Shown here: one piece after another, positions 1 through 9,097 of the stretch
Layout of the letters: the number at the start of each line of letters is the position of its first letter
Position numbering within the stretch: the stretch's first letter is position 1
DNA from: an uncultured Alphaproteobacteria bacterium
GTDB lineage: Bacteria > Pseudomonadota > Alphaproteobacteria > Rhodobacterales > Rhodobacteraceae
Reading direction: 5' to 3'
Assembly: GCA_902524655.1 (NCBI GenBank)
Contig: CABZEG010000006.1
Span: 1-60,640 of the forward strand
DNA length: 60,640 nt
Made by a program: the position numbers and the translations under genes
The notes under the pieces: generated by a model
What the model saw: the letters and a program-made list of their open reading frames with translations, nothing else
What the model was told of the DNA's origin: nothing
The model's database searches: none

Positions 1-854
1 TCTTCTACAAAACGTGCAATTTCTTTATTATCTTTTGCTAGAGCCTTTGCCAAAGAGTGATTTGGGGATATAGCGCAGAAGGACATTCCAAATATGGTAT
101 CAGGTCTAGTAGTAAAGACCTCTAGCTTGTCCAAATGAGGGGAGTTTGCCAAAGAGAAAGTAATAGAAGCCCCTTCGGACCTTCCAATCCAATTTTTTTG
201 CATTAACTTCACTTTTTCTGGCCAGTTTGGTAGGTTGTCTAGGCTTTCCAAAAGTTCTTGTGAATAGTCTGAAATTTTAAAAAACCATTGGGTCAGCTCT
301 CTTTTTTCGATTTCTGCTCCTGATCTCCATCCCTTTCCATTCTCTACCTGTTCATTTGCCAAAACGGTTTTGTCAACTGGATCCCAATTCACTAATGATT
401 TTTTTCTATACGCTAAGTTTTTTTCCAGCATGTCGATGAAGAGTTCTTGTTGTTGTTTGTAATAGGTCTCATCACAGGTGGCAAACTCTCTCGACCAGTC
501 AATTGATAGCCCCATTGGTTTGAGCTGGGATTTCATTTCTTCTATATTTTTATATGTCCATGTACCTGGATGTACATTATTTTCCATAGCCGCATTTTCG
601 GCAGGCATACCGAAAGCATCCCATCCCATAGGATGCAAAACATTAAATCCTTTGTGTCGTTTGTAGCGGGCAATGACGTCTCCCATTGTGTAGTTGCGAA
701 CATGACCCATGTGGATTTTTCCTGAGGGGTATGGAAACATTTCAAGAACATAATATTTCTTTTTGGTTTGATCAACATCAGTAAAATAAGTATTTTGCTC
801 TTCCCATATTTTCTGCCATTTTCTTTCAGCTTGTTTTGCGTTATATCGTTCCAT
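1..854 (-). CDS. leuS: Leucyl-tRNA synthetase, N-terminal part (runs off left edge)
   Basis: Encodes the first ~284 residues of LeuRS, which charges tRNA-Leu in the cytoplasm. The N-terminus [14 protein letters not shown], the [11 protein letters not shown] signature (HIGH-type ATP site, about residues 43-53) and the Rossmann/editing-domain boundary [10 protein letters not shown] are clear. The start is ATG at 852-854. The reading frame is still open at base 1, at about the point (…ARFVEE) where family members enter the editing domain. The rest is not contiguous: the matching C-terminal part lies at about 4.34-5.99 kb on the opposite strand, with roughly 15 residues missing between the two. 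Confidence in identity is very high. Whether the left continuation is leuS or something else cannot be seen. Confidence 0.95.
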
Positions 855-1137
855 TTTTTGCCTATGACTGTAAAATATAGATTTCAAGAGGTTTTAATTT
901 TTTTTACAATTCTAATCAACTACTATTAATAAGCTTCTTAGTCAATTTCTGACAGTTTTTGTTGCAATTTTACATCATTAAAAAAAAACAAATAAGCAAA
1001 GTCGAATGCTCTCTTGACCTTTTAGCACTTAATAAGAAATATATACTTTACATGCTTGGGAATGGTGTAGGTTTATAAGACTTGCGCATGTCAAGCAGGT
1101 GCACCTAAATGTAAACATTTAAATATGAGGAAAGAAC

Positions 1138-2652
1138 ATGAAAAAAGTTCTATTAACGACGACAGCGATCGTTGGGCTTTCTGCGCCCTCTTTCGCTGCT
1201 GATCCGACCGCCGTGTCAGATCAACCATATTTCCACCACGCACATCCAATGACGTGGTCTGGAGCTATGTCTATAAAGTTAACAAACCAGTCAACCAAGG
1301 ATTCAGACGATGCTAAGGATAAAGCAGCGAAGAAAAACATGGTTTTCGGTCACTTAGCAGGTATCACAATTGCCGCCACGACTGATTACGAAGAGCAAGT
1401 CGTAGCGAGTGTTGCGGATATAGGATCGTTAGTTGACACTGTACAAACTGCTGCGATGGTAGTTATTTCAGACTACTTGGATGACATGAAGACAAATATC
1501 AGCGCACACGCTAGCTACACGCTAGCCACTGCTATAAACGCTGGTGGTGCTTCAGCTGTTGAAGATGTGATCGATGACTTTTTAGGTGGCTCATTCTCAG
1601 AAGCTATGGATGTTATCATCGAAGCGCATGCAAATGGTACTACACCAAACGGATCAGCGATGTCAGATCTTCGTGCTGATCTACAGGCATTTGCTGATGC
1701 TCAAGACGATGCTGCAGAAGCTGTAGAAACTACTGCATCAATCAACACTACTGCTTCACTTGGTGTTGCCATGTCAGCAGGTGATGGTTGGACAGCATCA
1801 ACAAGTGGAACCATTAACTTAGGTTCTGGATCAGTAGCTGGAGGCACAGTGTCCATGAGTAACGGTATGCTAACATTGTCTGTTGGTAAGACACAGCATG
1901 CTGCAACATCTGCTGTAACAAAAATGTTCGGTATGGACGTTGCATTGGATACCAATGCAGCCGATACACAGCTTCAAGCTACTATGGCTGTAGGTGGAGC
2001 TACCATCCAAGTAGATAACGAACTAGATGGTGATAACTTAGAAACTAAGAGCCAAACAGTTGGTATCAAGGGAGCATATGGCACTATGTCGTATGGTCTA
2101 GGATGGCAAGCTGATGGTGATTTAGGTTTCTCTTTAGGTACAACCCTCGGTGGCATCGGCTTAACGATATCAAGAGTTAATGCAGGTAATACCTACTCCA
2201 TGGGTGTTGCAGCAGCAGTAGATCTTGGTGGCGGAATGACGTTGAACGCTACTAATGCTCAAAACTCTGATGGACTTCAGGACAAGAGCTTTGATTACGA
2301 TGCAGTTACATCAGATTATACTGGTTTTGCACAAGGTAAGAGTATCACGCATGCGTTTGCACTCAAGGCAGTGCATAAGAGTATCAGCACTGTAGGTATA
2401 AACTACGCTGGTGGCGGTACATCTGTCGGTATTACTTATCAGGAAAAAGCTGGGACAAGTGCAGCTGGTGATAACCTTATAGCTTCCGGTTCTATGGCCA
2501 TATCACCAACTATCACTCTGACTGGTAGCTACAACAAAGATGACGCACTAACAACGATCGGTGCTTCTGGACCATTAGGTTCAGCAGGAACACTGAGTGC
2601 TACAATGACAAGTACTGGTTCGTCAACATTGACAGCTTCTTTTAAGTTCTAA
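1138..2652 (+). CDS. Porin-like outer-membrane beta-barrel protein
   Basis: A 504-residue protein with a clean signal peptide (MKKVLLTTTAIVGLSAPSFA, cleavage after AFA/A). It is rich in Gly, Ala, Ser and Thr, has alternating hydrophobic/polar strands across residues ~195-500, and ends in phenylalanine (TASFKF), the usual C-terminal beta-signal of outer-membrane barrels. Residues ~50-200 form a more helical, Ala-rich insert, unusual for a plain 16-stranded porin. The start is set by GAGGAAAG 5-12 nt upstream of the ATG. Codon use is richer in GC than neighbouring genes, as expected for a highly expressed protein. An intrinsic terminator follows directly. It probably mediates passive uptake of small solutes. 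The exact porin family was not confirmed. Confidence 0.8.
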   Translation: MKKVLLTTTAIVGLSAPSFAADPTAVSDQPYFHHAHPMTWSGAMSIKLTNQSTKDSDDAKDKAAKKNMVFGHLAGITIAATTDYEEQVVASVADIGSLVDTVQTAAMVVISDYLDDMKTNISAHASYTLATAINAGGASAVEDVIDDFLGGSFSEAMDVIIEAHANGTTPNGSAMSDLRADLQAFADAQDDAAEAVETTASINTTASLGVAMSAGDGWTASTSGTINLGSGSVAGGTVSMSNGMLTLSVGKTQHAATSAVTKMFGMDVALDTNAADTQLQATMAVGGATIQVDNELDGDNLETKSQTVGIKGAYGTMSYGLGWQADGDLGFSLGTTLGGIGLTISRVNAGNTYSMGVAAAVDLGGGMTLNATNAQNSDGLQDKSFDYDAVTSDYTGFAQGKSITHAFALKAVHKSISTVGINYAGGGTSVGITYQEKAGTSAAGDNLIASGSMAISPTITLTGSYNKDDALTTIGASGPLGSAGTLSATMTSTGSSTLTASFKF

Positions 2653-2673
2653 AGTGAGTAATCATTAATACTG

Positions 2674-2702
2674 AAAGGGCGGGTTTTCCCGCCCTTTTTT
2701 TT
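2674..2702 (+). terminator. Intrinsic terminator after the porin gene
   Basis: A 10-bp perfect stem (AAAGGGCGGG / CCCGCCCTTT) with a TTTT loop is followed by a T tract. The only in-frame upstream start of the next gene (TTG at 2701) falls inside this T tract. Confidence 0.93.
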
Positions 2703-4101
2703 GATAAAACTGAATGAAAAAAAAAAAGAAAATATTTTTTCTAAAGATTTAATAAAAGCAGTGGAGCTTGCGAATTCGGGCGCTTACGATGAGGCGGCTA
2801 ATATTTGCAGAAAAATAAAATCATATAATACTGATAATGCAATATTTTTTAATGTCTTTGGCATTGTATGTAGAAGGCTAGGACTTTTAGATGAAGCGGC
2901 GAGGTACTCTAAGAGGGCCATCCAAATAGATGGAAGTTTGGTTGCGGCAAAGATGAATATTGCAAATATTGAACTCCAAAGGGGTTCTATAAACGAAGCC
3001 ATTAAATTGCTAGAAGTAATAGTGAAGGAGGAACCAACGTATGAAGAGGCTAAAGCAAACCTCGCTTTAGCGTATAAGAACATTGGAAAATTGCCAACAG
3101 CGCTAAATATCTATAGGAAATTAATCTTTCAGGAACCCTGGTCTGCGAAAGCAAGGTTTAACTATGCTACGACACTAGTAACAATAAAAAATTTTAAACA
3201 AGGGTGGCAAGGTTATGAGTATCGGTGGAAAATTGGAGCTGCTACTAAAGTGCAATGGCCAATCAAGAGTAAGCCTATGTGGAAGGGAGAAAGGGGAGAA
3301 CGTATTGTTTTATGGAGAGAACAGGGTGTTGGAGATGATATTATATTTTTGGGTTTAGTTCCTGAAGTTAAAGAGATGTGTAGGGCGCTATCGGTATATG
3401 TTGATCCACGCCTACAACCCCTATGTAAGCGAGCGATGCCAGACATAGATTTCATCAAAGATGTTAAGGACCTAGAAAGTATCGAATGTGATTATCATTT
3501 GCCGATGGGAAGTGTACCGGGTTTGATCCGCAATGACATTAGCGATTTTGATAGGACGGTTAAAGGGTATCTAAAAGCGGATCCACAACGCGTAGAGTTG
3601 ATACGTAATGAATTAAATTTACGTGGTAAGACAGCCGTTGGTATTTCATGGAAGAGTTTCAAATCTTTAAACCAAACAAAGAAGAGTGTGCAATTGAGAG
3701 ATATGGAGCGAATATTTTCGGGATTGGATGTAGTATTGGTTAATCTTCAATATGGTGATATTGCGGACGAGATAAAGGAGTTTAAGGAGGAGACCGGGAT
3801 AGAAGTAGTGCAATGCGCTTCTGTAGATAATAGAGAAGATCTTGATGGATTAGCGGCGTTGATTGAAGCTTGTGATTTAGTGATATCAACTAGTAACGTT
3901 ACAATTCATATGGCGGGAGCATTAGCAAAAGAGACATGGGTATTATTACCCTATGTGGCAAATTTTTGGTGGTTATTAGAGAGAACGGATAGTATTTGGT
4001 ATCCTAGTTTAACGCTGTATCGTCAACCTAATCTAGATGATTGGAACAATGTTTATCTATCTGTTAGAAAAGATCTAGAAACAAGGCTTCAGTATAATTG
4101 A
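2701..4101 (+). CDS. TPR protein with C-terminal glycosyltransferase-9-like domain
   Basis: Residues ~15-155 form about four tetratricopeptide repeats (AVELANSGAYDEAANIC, YSKRAIQIDGSLVAA, LEVIVKEEPTYEEAK, YRKLIFQEPWSAKA). Residues ~190-465 resemble the heptosyltransferase-like (GT9 fold) half of TPR/GT proteins common in marine alphaproteobacteria, including an LWREQGVGDDIIF loop and a late STSNVTIHMAGAL segment. The start is doubtful. TTG at 2701 lies in the porin terminator and has no ribosome-binding site, whereas an ATG at 2714 followed by eleven A residues is one base out of frame. A paralogous TPR start follows at 4.17 kb. Substrate is unknown; protein or envelope glycosylation is an inference. 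Confidence 0.7.
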   Translation: MIKLNEKKKENIFSKDLIKAVELANSGAYDEAANICRKIKSYNTDNAIFFNVFGIVCRRLGLLDEAARYSKRAIQIDGSLVAAKMNIANIELQRGSINEAIKLLEVIVKEEPTYEEAKANLALAYKNIGKLPTALNIYRKLIFQEPWSAKARFNYATTLVTIKNFKQGWQGYEYRWKIGAATKVQWPIKSKPMWKGERGERIVLWREQGVGDDIIFLGLVPEVKEMCRALSVYVDPRLQPLCKRAMPDIDFIKDVKDLESIECDYHLPMGSVPGLIRNDISDFDRTVKGYLKADPQRVELIRNELNLRGKTAVGISWKSFKSLNQTKKSVQLRDMERIFSGLDVVLVNLQYGDIADEIKEFKEETGIEVVQCASVDNREDLDGLAALIEACDLVISTSNVTIHMAGALAKETWVLLPYVANFWWLLERTDSIWYPSLTLYRQPNLDDWNNVYLSVRKDLETRLQYN

Positions 4102-4170
4102 GCTGCTGGGGGATAGGGTATAAATAAGGATAATAGACATAATATAGCAAAAGCTGACTTAGAATCTATA

Positions 4171-5985
4171 ATGTATATGTATCGTCAGAAACGCTATGAT
4201 GATTGCATCAGGGAAGTAAAATCAAAGTTAAAAAAGAGCCCTAATTCTTTACATTTGTTGAACTATCAGGCTATGGCTTATTCGGCCTTAAAAAGAGATA
4301 AAGAAGCACTTCTGAGTTACCAGAAGATTGTAAAAAAAGGACTTGAGACTAAAATAAAAGTAATACATCCCTTCGAAAATAGAAAAGTGCCCCTCTACAT
4401 TGCAAATTTTGTTTTGATGGAATACGGAACTGGAGCTGTCTTTGGCTGTCCAGCACACGACCAGCGCGATTTAGAGTTTGCACTGAAGTATAAATTGGAC
4501 GTGTTTCCGGTGGTATGCCCTAAAAATCAAGATGCGGCTTCGTTTTCAGTTGAAAATGAGGCCTATGTTGGAGATGGAAAAATTATAAACTCAAAGTTTT
4601 TGAATGGACTGACAATCAATGAGGCTAAGAGAAAAATAATTTCTTCACTATCTGAAAAAAAGATGGGTGAAAAAAAAGTTACCTACAGACTGAAAGACTG
4701 GGGTATTTCTAGGCAAAGGTACTGGGGATGTCCGATCCCAATAATATATTGCAAACACTGTGGCGTTGTACCAGAAAAAAAAGAAAATCTACCTGTTAAA
4801 CTCCCAAAAAACGTTTCTTTTGAAAAACCAGGAAATCCACTGGCGTCTGCAACTGAGTGGCTTAAAGTAAATTGTCCAACTTGTGGAAAACCAGCCAGGC
4901 GTGAAACAGATACTATGGATACTTTCGTAGACAGCTCTTGGTATTTTATAAGGTTTACAAGCCCTAAACATAATAGACCCACACGAGAGAGTGATTTAAA
5001 ATACTGGATGAATGTAGATCAGTACATTGGTGGTGTTGAGCACGCTATTTTACATCTTTTGTACTCCCGTTTTTTCGCGCGCGCTTTACATAAAACTGGG
5101 CACATTCCCAAAGTGTTTCTGGAGCCATTTTCAGCGCTATTTACTCAAGGAATGGTTTGCCATGAAACCTACAAAGATCCCAATGGCAATTGGCTTTCAC
5201 CAGAAGAAATTAGAGTATGTTTGGATAGTTCAGGAAAAAAAATCGTAAAATGCATTAAGAAAGGGTCAGATGTTAAAATTGGTCGATCCGTAAAAATGTC
5301 TAAGTCAAAAAAGAATGTTATAGATCCAATAGACATAATTGATCAATTCGGAGCAGATACAGCTAGATGGTTTGTGATGTCGGATAGTCCTCCCGAGAGA
5401 GATATATCGTGGTCAACAGAAGGTGTTGAGGGAGCATGGAAACATCTTAATCGAGTCTGGCGATTGACCAAACAGATAACCAATATGCTTGAAGAGAAAA
5501 ACTTAAATTTAAAGTCATTTGAAGATAGAGAAATAGATGATTTTATTTTTTATACATCAAAATTTATTGAAAGTTTTTCCTTTAATAAAGCAATCGCGAA
5601 AATTTATGAATTGACAAACTTTTTAGCTAAAGAGGACATAAGTATAGAACAAAAAATTTATGGAATAAAATCCCTCGCGATCCTCATGGAACCTTTTACT
5701 CCACACCTATCACAAGAAATTTGGGTTACAATAGGTGAAAAGGGCCTAATTGCCGAAGCTAAATGGCCAGCTATTAAAGAGTGGAAGACTAAAAGTGAAA
5801 ATATAATTTTACCAATACAGATAAATGGAAAAAGAAAAGCTGAAATATCGGTGGCTCCTAATCTCACTGAAGAAAAAATTAAGGAATTAATTCTTAGAGA
5901 GGAGATAATTAAAAAAGCTTTGCTGAATTCCAACATAAAAAGGTTCATTTATGTTCCAGGAAAAATTGTAAACCTCGTCATATGA
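4171..5985 (+). pseudogene. leuS: Chimeric ORF: TPR N-terminus fused to C-terminal ~65% of LeuRS
   Basis: Residues 1-~55 are a TPR segment ([25 protein letters not shown]) related in style to the gene before it. From about residue 57 ([14 protein letters not shown]) it is LeuRS: editing-domain end with [15 protein letters not shown], catalytic domain with [11 protein letters not shown], zinc-type Cys pairs (CKHC, CPTC), the KMSKSKK loop at about residue 375, the anticodon-binding domain, and the C-terminal [11 protein letters not shown]. The HIGH half is absent, so it cannot charge tRNA alone. The join is near base 4336, in the run GTAAAAAAAGG. The 3' context (lptE, holA) is the normal leuS neighbourhood, so this is the resident 3' end. 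It is joined to foreign 5' sequence by an inversion or a chimeric read. Confidence 0.9.
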
Positions 5986-6024
5986 AAGTTTAGACCTATA
6001 ACCAATAAAATATTCATTGTACTA

Positions 6025-6486
6025 TTGCTTTTTGTAAACGTTAGCTGTGGGTTTTCACCTTTGCATAACAATATAAACTCAATGGAGGTATTCAAAAATA
6101 TTGATATAAAAAAAGAAAATACCTCATTTGCTTCTTTAATTGTAGAATCTCTTAATGTTAAAGCACCTTTTACGAAAAGCGGGCAAAACTCTCTGCATAT
6201 AACGCCTAGTGTAAAGAACTCTTATGGCGTGATTACAAAAGAAAACGAAATAACAAGATATTCTGTAACCTTGGATGTGGCTTATGTCTTGCTCGATAAG
6301 AGATCGAAAAAAATTATTCTCCAAAATAAAGTATCTGCTACTTCAGATTACAGCGCTGCTGTGACGTTTACTGGTTTTGCCACAGAAATAGCCAAAAGAA
6401 ATACATACGAAAGACTTGCCGATTCGGTTGCAGATAAAATAATTACCGAGATCCTGATTTATAATTCAAGTGAGAATGCTTCTTGA
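6025..6486 (+). CDS. lptE: LPS-assembly lipoprotein LptE
   Basis: A small outer-membrane lipoprotein that plugs the LptD barrel during LPS insertion. The LLFVNVSC lipobox with cysteine at residue 8 of this frame, the Gly-Phe-x-Pro-Leu motif after it, and the location between leuS and holA identify it. The 153-residue length is normal, but the N-terminus from TTG 6025 is too short for a signal peptide. The same frame extends back to the leuS stop and reads KFRPITNKIFIVLLL without any start codon. ATG 5982, which overlaps the leuS stop as ATGA, would supply a perfect signal sequence if one A of the AAA at 5985-5987 were absent. I infer a one-base insertion (error or mutation). The gene overlaps holA by 4 bp. 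Confidence 0.8.
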   Translation: MLFVNVSCGFSPLHNNINSMEVFKNIDIKKENTSFASLIVESLNVKAPFTKSGQNSLHITPSVKNSYGVITKENEITRYSVTLDVAYVLLDKRSKKIILQNKVSATSDYSAAVTFTGFATEIAKRNTYERLADSVADKIITEILIYNSSENAS

Positions 6487-7490
6487 TTTACTACAAGAAC
6501 AGGATCGAAAGTTTAAATGGAATGTTTGAAAAGTGCTCCATGATAGTACTAATCAGTAAACAATATAACTTTTTGCAAAAAGAGGCAAAAAGAATTTCTG
6601 ATGCAATTGCTGGCCCGAATGCAAATAATGAAATGAGAATAGCAAAGTATTTTAATCAGGAAATAAATGGGAAAAGAGAAGAAATAATAGCAAGTTTAAG
6701 GACAAAAAGCTTCTTTCCCGGCCCAAAAATAATAATTTTAAATGGATTGCCTGAAAAAGATTTCAAAATAATCCTTGAGATTGAGTCAGCATGGCAAAAG
6801 GATGATGCCATAACTATTGTGACGACCAATAATTTGCCCAGAAACCAGGAATTTAGGAAATTACTAGAATCCAGTATAAAGATAATTGCTATTAACTACA
6901 CTGAAAATAAAGTGAAAAGTGAGGTATTGAGTAAAAAACTAGCTGAAAAAGGGCTTAAATTTGAGGGCGAGGAAGTATTAGGGACGCTAATCGAGTTCGC
7001 AAATTTTACATCTGAGGATATGCTTGATAATGAGCTTGAAAAGCTAAAGCTTTTCAAACTATACGATGACAAACCCATAACCAATAATGATTTCTTTGAT
7101 ATAGTATCGATCAACTATGAAATTGACGAATTAAGTTTGGCGGTGGCGGTGGCGGATAGAAACATTGTCGAAGTTGAGAAAAAACTAAGCTTATTTTATT
7201 CACGAGGCAATAATCTTGTAACTATGTTACAGTTTTTATCCGCATATTTTTATAAGTTATCTTTAATAAAGATGTATGGACCTACCAGCTTTGAGGTGAA
7301 ACGTGAATATCCTTTTCTTGTTACCAATGACCTTGAAAAAGCAAAAATTCATGTAAAACGGTGGTCTTCAGAACAATTAAAAATTGTGACTAATTGTATA
7401 ACAATTTCGGATCTTAAATTAAGAAAATATCACTCAGTGTTTCAACGATCTATAATAACGCAATGTCTTAATAAAATTATGGATGTATAA
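6483..7490 (+). CDS. holA: DNA polymerase III delta subunit
   Basis: The clamp-loader subunit that opens the sliding clamp. The 335-residue length and the order of segments match alphaproteobacterial HolA: NNEMRIAKY early, then SFFPGPKIIILNG, the central ATP-less AAA+ fold, and a C-terminal helical domain with QFLSAYFYKL. The start is TTG at 6483, overlapping the lptE stop (TTGA). No in-frame ATG precedes it, and the first internal ATG (residue 14) would also preserve the fold. Co-transcription with lptE and leuS is the usual arrangement. Confidence 0.88.
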   Translation: MIYYKNRIESLNGMFEKCSMIVLISKQYNFLQKEAKRISDAIAGPNANNEMRIAKYFNQEINGKREEIIASLRTKSFFPGPKIIILNGLPEKDFKIILEIESAWQKDDAITIVTTNNLPRNQEFRKLLESSIKIIAINYTENKVKSEVLSKKLAEKGLKFEGEEVLGTLIEFANFTSEDMLDNELEKLKLFKLYDDKPITNNDFFDIVSINYEIDELSLAVAVADRNIVEVEKKLSLFYSRGNNLVTMLQFLSAYFYKLSLIKMYGPTSFEVKREYPFLVTNDLEKAKIHVKRWSSEQLKIVTNCITISDLKLRKYHSVFQRSIITQCLNKIMDV

Positions 7491-7495
7491 CTTTC

Positions 7496-8473
7496 TTGTT
7501 TAAACCTTTAAAAAATCTAACAAAAGTTCTTCTTTTTCCCATATTTTATTTTTTATCTTTGATTTGGAGCACTTTGCATAGCCTGAGAATAAGACTCGGC
7601 AGATACGAAAAAATGCCAATTCCTGTAATTTGTGTTGGCAATGTGACTATGGGAGGTGCCGGTAAAACCCCAACGGTTATTTTTCTAGCAAACTACTTTA
7701 AGAAAAATAAAATTAAAGTCCATGTTGTAAGCCGTGGGTATGGCGGGAAATATAAGCAACCCCTTTTGGTAAATCCAAAAATTCATACTGCTTTGGATGT
7801 AGGTGACGAGCCGTTTTTGATATCTCAGTATACAGAAGTTTGGGTGTCAAAACAAAAGAAAGAAGGGGTCTTATTAGCTTACAAAGCGGGAGCTGAATTA
7901 GTGCTACTGGATGATGGTCATCAAAACTTTACAATTAAAAAAAATGTGAACATTTTGGTATTTGATGCAGAATCAAATTTAAAAAATGAAAGAATTTTTC
8001 CTTTGGGTAACTTGAGAGAGAGCCCGAAATCTGCGATTGTAAGAGCCGATTTTTTTATATGTATTGGTAGTGCGATTGCTAGAAAAAATTTTCAGGAAAC
8101 ATTTTTGCAATACAAGGCTTCTAAGGTTATCGAAGGAGAATTTAAGGCCACCATAAATCCCATTTTAAAGAAAAGAAAACTTGTTGCATTTTGTGGTATT
8201 GGAAGACCGGAAAAATTCTTTTCGATGCTAATCGAATTAAATATGCTAGTTATCAAAAAAGTATCGTTTCCTGACCATCATTTTTATTCAACAAGTCAAC
8301 TCGATAAAGTTTTGAACATAGCAAAAAAAAATAATGCTTTAATTGTGACAACAGAAAAAGACTTTGTCAAAATTCCCAGAGCTTATAAAAAATTAGTACA
8401 TTCAATAAATATCGATCTTCATATATCAAAAAATGAAGAAGTTCTTAAAAAATTAAAGGATTCAGTTTTTTAA
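7496..8473 (+). CDS. lpxK: Tetraacyldisaccharide 4'-kinase
   Basis: Phosphorylates the lipid A disaccharide at the inner membrane. It has an N-terminal hydrophobic segment (residues ~10-28), a P-loop variant GNVTMGGAGKTPT (about 48-60), the family motif SRGYGG, LLDDGHQN, and late TTEKDFVKI. The 325-residue length is typical. The start TTG 7496 has no clear ribosome-binding site and lies 6 nt after holA, so the exact start is uncertain. The 3' end overlaps the convergent dsbA-like gene by 12 bp. Together with LptE and the nearby outer-membrane genes it marks an LPS-producing Gram-negative cell. Confidence 0.93.
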   Translation: MFKPLKNLTKVLLFPIFYFLSLIWSTLHSLRIRLGRYEKMPIPVICVGNVTMGGAGKTPTVIFLANYFKKNKIKVHVVSRGYGGKYKQPLLVNPKIHTALDVGDEPFLISQYTEVWVSKQKKEGVLLAYKAGAELVLLDDGHQNFTIKKNVNILVFDAESNLKNERIFPLGNLRESPKSAIVRADFFICIGSAIARKNFQETFLQYKASKVIEGEFKATINPILKKRKLVAFCGIGRPEKFFSMLIELNMLVIKKVSFPDHHFYSTSQLDKVLNIAKKNNALIVTTEKDFVKIPRAYKKLVHSINIDLHISKNEEVLKKLKDSVF

Positions 8474-9097
8474 TTCTTTTTCAATTATTTCCTTTAATTC
8501 TTCATAGGAACGATTGGTGTACTTTTGTCCATTAATAATGAACGTGGGTGTTGATTCGATCGCGTCTTCATTAACATATTCACGGTATTGGTCTACTAGA
8601 TCTAATGCCTTTTCTTGATCTTCCAAACAAGAAATGGCCTTTTCCTTTTCAATTCCAGATTTTGCTGAAATCTTTAAAAGCATATTTACAATGCCATCAC
8701 TAGTTTCTGATCTAGACCATTTTTGCTGTTCGGAATAAAGTAAATCTAGCATGCCAAAATAACGTTTTACTGAATTTGTGCAGCGAGCGGTCAGAGCAGC
8801 CCACAATCCAGCCTTGTCAAAATAGATCTCTCTATGAATAAATTTCATTTTTCCAGTCTCAATGAAGTCTTTATTTAACTTTGGGTAAACGTCGGTGTGA
8901 AAAGCCGCACAAGCTGGGCAGGTTAGTGATGCATACTCTACAAAAATAATAGGGGCATTGTCATTCCCTTTGGACATTTCAATATATTTTTTTTCAACCT
9001 TTGATGTTTCTGCTGCGAAAGAAAATCCTGAAAAAAAAAGTAACCAAAGTAATAGAGGGAAATTAATATATAATGTTTTAATACTAAATAGCTTCAT
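8462..9097 (-). CDS. DsbA-like thiol-disulfide protein, periplasmic
   Basis: A signal peptide (residues 1-28, ending FSFAAE) is followed by a thioredoxin fold with the DsbA-type insertion. The active site is CPAC in LTCPACAAFH (about residues 60-63) and the cis-proline loop is STPTFIING. An extra cysteine pair (ARCTN, ISCLE) lies in the helical insert. It probably oxidises cysteines or acts as an oxidoreductase in the periplasm. It overlaps the upstream DUF721 gene by 14 bp, so the two are co-transcribed. The mutY/DUF721/dsbA grouping is common in Rhodobacterales. Confidence 0.85.
   Translation of the reverse strand: MKLFSIKTLYINFPLLLWLLFFSGFSFAAETSKVEKKYIEMSKGNDNAPIIFVEYASLTCPACAAFHTDVYPKLNKDFIETGKMKFIHREIYFDKAGLWAALTARCTNSVKRYFGMLDLLYSEQQKWSRSETSDGIVNMLLKISAKSGIEKEKAISCLEDQEKALDLVDQYREYVNEDAIESTPTFIINGQKYTNRSYEELKEIIEKELKN

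Follow-up and report, generated by a model that had tools for sequence, protein, structure and literature searches.

The window analysed here, which is the whole of a 60,640-base contig (C6) of genome G000, carries leuS in two parts on opposite strands, and this split is very probably an inverted chimera of multiple displacement amplification (MDA) in a probable single-amplified genome rather than a real feature. In G000 itself leuS is almost certainly intact and divergent from the porin. The assembly amounts to 1.77 Mb in 72 contigs and is 71% complete. An inverted amplification or assembly join was also the reading favoured by the first-pass annotation, and it is supported by the gene order in congeners, by the continuation of the interrupted TPR gene in a relative and by a 46-nt offset at the contig end.

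The two LeuRS parts follow each other in family order, do not overlap and hold 834 of about 850 codons (284 plus 550). Contig C6 has no single full-length LeuRS ORF, though each half fits the family profile TIGR00396 (Table 1). The profile matches of both parts bear out the earlier description of a leuS gene split on opposite strands with an in-frame TPR-LeuRS ORF. In the order of its parts the split gene resembles a bacterial leuS; it is cut and inverted here, whereas the 12 congeners in which leuS was found have it intact.

Table 1. Features of the window around the split leuS gene.
Feature	Position	Strand	Evidence and remarks
leuS 5′ part	1..854	-	codons 1-284 (854-3) plus 2 nt; family profile TIGR00396 (leuS_bact) positions 1-279; PF13603 and PF00133; base 1 is the contig end
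porin-like gene	1138..2652	+	divergent from leuS; DNA match beside leuS in 11/12 congeners; no Pfam family
TPR gene 1 of array	2701..4101	+	TPR_19 and other TPR families; C-terminal half weakly heptosyltransferase-like
TPR gene 2, 5′ end	4126..4329	+	truncated by the join; 67% identical over 70 codons to G007:C52:8155-8364
chimeric join	4330..4333		base-by-base comparison with TPR orthologue and 12 leuS genes; first leuS-shared base probably 4332
leuS 3′ part	4332..5985	+	TIGR00396 positions 291-842, matched by ORF 4171-5985 (TPR start plus leuS 3′ part); in frame with TPR start; 66-78% identical to 12 congeners
lptE-like gene	6025..6486	+	right of leuS; similar ORF at the same place in L037-L039; named by position only
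holA	6483..7490	+	TIGR01128, 3e-19; 69.5 bits, below the cut-off of 80

To establish how the locus is arranged in related genomes, leuS was searched for in 21 congeners (G001-G021). A strong match to the 3′ part was present in 12 of them and none in the other nine. In all 12 the gene is uninterrupted and 851 codons long. The porin lies on the minus strand and leuS on the plus strand in 11 of the 12, and in the twelfth, G014, the contig starts at leuS. Beyond the porin, DNA matching TPR gene 1 was observed in nine of those 11 congeners; in G011 and G009 the match stops near the porin end, and a TPR-like ORF is present there in G011. Rightward, the DNA match covers both lptE and holA in all of the 12 but G009, where it reaches only 6452. 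From a wider listing of loci (the best 80 of 99) only three congeners were used. Judging from these alignments, the usual congener order is TPR(-), porin(-), leuS(+), lptE, holA, and the window is inverted against it from base 1 to about 4331.

The suggestion that related genomes might show leuS-lptE-holA with a divergent porin was thus confirmed in 11 of 12 cases. The names of these neighbours held to different degrees. The gene called holA is backed by its below-cut-off TIGR01128 match and by the DNA match in congeners, while lptE owes its name to its position, as neither Pfam nor NCBIfam gave a match for 6025..6486. The divergent gene beside leuS was recovered as described, but the name porin has no Pfam support.

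Additional evidence comes from the gene that the join interrupts. Within the genus, the only good match to the cut-off start of TPR gene 2 is in contig C52 of G007, besides two weak ones (27% and 31%). It was in G007 that the rest of the gene, which the first-pass annotation had proposed to look for, was found, and G007 is the one congener in which this continuation was seen. There the gene is an open frame of 713 aa that does not enter leuS, and the next genes are a third of the TPR type and one for a membrane protein, ArnT-like by eye. When G007 genes 2 and 3 were used as queries, neither the rest of TPR gene 2 nor gene 3 was found in G000; the queries recovered gene 1 (69% and 66%, respectively), the gene 2 stump (75%, 53 codons) and further TPR proteins with no more than 35% identity. 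Of the ArnT-like gene, just the final 98 codons were found in G000, where contig C55 opens with them; this contig is collinear with G007:C52 from base 2716 down (78%). Beyond the join, some 5.4 kb of the true locus, as measured in G007, was not found in the G000 assembly, whose graph seems to lack the true path there.

G007:C52 holds two full paralogues and one fragment of TPR gene 1. Together, positions 4037-8769 of that contig (L125) and 2701-4329 of the window contain tandem TPR genes beside the porin that have in common a weakly heptosyltransferase-like C-terminal half; for TPR gene 1 the match to TIGR02201 (0.0021) is far below the cut-off. A TPR protein that is a distant relative of TPR gene 1 (26%) is encoded at the start of another G000 contig (L135; G000:C63:3-1268), and its end appears, by eye only, to be a methyltransferase-like half.

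The join had been placed near ~4336. The approximate site stood, and the comparison of bases moved it to about 4330-4333: DNA similarity to TPR gene 2 of G007:C52 ends at 4329, and leuS similarity begins at ~4332/4333. Base 4330 fits all 12 leuS genes but differs from the TPR orthologue. Since base 4331 (T) agrees with none of the 12 leuS genes (nor with the TPR orthologue), base 4332 with seven and base 4333 with all 12, the leuS-shared sequence probably starts at 4332.

An exact 12-nt inverted repeat lies on the join: 4327-4338 is complementary to 899-910, a stretch immediately 5′ of leuS. Of 3000 window positions drawn at random, 1.9% have a match of this kind of 12 nt or more. The repeat could be a trace of a two-step template switch, from the TPR gene to the leuS upstream region and from there to leuS, or it could be due to chance in A-rich DNA. 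A two-step switch would explain bases 4330-4331, which are not found in the TPR orthologue.

The leuS gap between base 1 and base 4333 measures 46 nt in 12/12 comparisons, in agreement with the earlier estimate that the window starts within ~50 nt of the matching breakpoint. A contig start that was left untrimmed and overlaps the join was considered and rejected, as the longest exact match between the reverse complement of 1-300 and bases 4300-4700 is 8 nt.

G000 is probably a single-amplified genome, its DNA presumably multiplied by phi29 polymerase, as suggested by the names of its relatives and by its last-numbered contigs (C70, C71 and C72), which at 2274, 2116 and 2113 bases are just over 2 kb long. 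The named relatives AG-892-M03, AG-899-B02 and AG-904-M20 have a name form that we take to be the one used on single-cell plates. The record title of AG-892-M03 reads 'MAG', and the prefixes of the three names are absent from the main text of PMC9771814, which weakens the link to the pipeline of that paper. According to a passage of the same paper, SPAdes --sc assemblies of marine single cells were trimmed by 100 bp at contig ends and subjected to a >2000-bp cut; likewise, a passage of PMC5519541 states that contigs lost 100 bp at either end and were subject to a >2000-bp cut after SPAdes --careful --sc on marine single cells. We infer that G000 passed through a single-cell pipeline of this type (SPAdes --sc with 100-bp trimming).

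In its --sc mode SPAdes presumably ends at K = 55. The K-mer at the fork would then be 4332-4386, and the removal of 100 bases places base 1 opposite 4286, as observed. If the shared sequence is taken to start at 4330 or at 4333, the prediction is off by 2 nt or 1 nt, respectively. A fold-back chimera thus predicts the 46-nt gap to within about 2 nt, given a fork near 4332, K = 55 and 100-bp trimming, in a geometry that rests on one chimera. For 144 ends in 1.77 Mb, a position fixed beforehand has a contig end no more than 1 nt away with a chance of ~2e-4, and no more than 50 nt away with one of ~8e-3.

In single-cell MDA of E. coli (Lasken and Stockwell 2007, PMC1855051), 406 of 475 chimeras were inverted and 337 of these 406 joined points <10 kb apart; complementary bases (2-21) at the join are a further mark of this class. 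The window shares with these chimeras segments from the same locus, an inverted orientation (the leuS parts lie on opposite strands here and on one strand in relatives) and a distance of <10 kb, in this case about 4.3 kb. By analogy, its join is of the commonest kind of MDA chimera. The comparison covers these three traits and not microhomology at the join, as the species' native sequence past both ends of the join is missing from the assembly; the 12-nt match of 4327-4338 to 899-910 would allow a two-step switch.

Such an arrangement could arise as follows. During MDA, synthesis of a strand may have proceeded leftward out of leuS, across the porin and TPR gene 1, and reached TPR gene 2. The 3′ end of this strand, once freed, could then have mis-primed at leuS, about 4.3 kb off, on a displaced strand close by, and have been extended rightward. 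The product would be a hairpin-like molecule in which two opposed copies of the leuS 3′ part and its right flank surround a 4.3-kb loop (1 to about 4331). Both loop ends would lead into one leuS node of the assembly graph, so that the loop could be attached in either orientation. The assembler would have joined the wrong loop end and left the right one dangling, as base 1. A hairpin molecule with both loop ends in one leuS node would account in one step for the join, for the place where the contig ends and for the distance between the two. We infer both that the chimera arose in amplification, not in library preparation or assembly, and which path the assembler took through the graph.

A chimera formed during library preparation or by the assembler alone would leave the same sequence, and the contig cannot tell these origins from amplification. 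We nevertheless hold such an origin to be very unlikely. The TPR orthologue and the leuS genes have no long common word at the join, which argues against an assembler error, and a library chimera, being rare, would have to win out over the true path, whereas an event early in amplification would presumably be copied many times. We consider it even less likely that the sampled cell had bases 1 to about 4331 truly inverted and drew its LeuRS from a second, intact leuS at another place. An assembly that is only 71% complete might have left such a copy unassembled, but none was found in G000, where the window DNA matches only itself, and leuS is intact at the same locus in the 12 congeners that have it. 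Outside C6, PF00133 was detected in a 923-aa frame on C2 and a 616-aa frame on C3, which we take to be other class I synthetases; a LeuRS query gave two short weak stretches on C2 and nothing on C3. The alternative of a second intact leuS, raised by the first-pass annotation, is therefore left without support in this 71%-complete assembly. Moreover, if the inversion were fixed, base 1 would lead into the rest of TPR gene 2, and the contig end at 46 nt would be unexplained; a fixed inversion accounts for the join only. A cell that was truly inverted would have a TPR-LeuRS fusion without the N-terminal half of the catalytic domain and would depend on a second leuS or on flipping in the population, a situation that we find hardly credible.

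The probability of an invertible (phase-variable) segment, present in both orientations in the replicated chromosomes of one cell, is in our view close to nil. Two orientations would also fork the assembly near base 1, and the 12-nt inverted repeat on the join might seem to speak for such a segment. That repeat, however, links the join to the region upstream of leuS and not to the other breakpoint, and flipping its arms leaves leuS split; its frequency at random positions given above is a further argument against it. None of the 11 inverted pairs within 1-4800 links the two breakpoints, and the 8-nt maximum reported above applies here as well, with the 46 missing nt lying outside that comparison. 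In the sequence present, those 46 nt aside, inverted repeats were not found at both breakpoints, and the proposal of an invertible segment, also made earlier, gains no support from it. Additionally, one of the orientations would inactivate an essential enzyme.

It is worth stressing that the probable MDA chimera should be marked as such, to keep the TPR-LeuRS fusion out of collections of new domain architectures and leuS from being scored as broken. A simple possible signature of chimeras in end-trimmed single-cell assemblies, of which the window provides one case, is a contig end that stops short of a mirrored inverted join by 100 minus K bases.

The contigs of the congeners show a regularity of their own at this locus. 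In 11 of the 12 congeners the contig with leuS ends 2.3-2.6 kb upstream of the gene, around the first gene of the TPR array. Identity between paralogues was not found to lie behind this common end in G007, where the gene 1 fragment has exact matches of only 34 and 21 nt with genes 2 and 3, shorter than K = 55. The nine of 21 congeners with no strong leuS match compare with 5.3 expected from the listed completeness values. This mild excess perhaps reflects a locus that adjoins an array where assemblies break.
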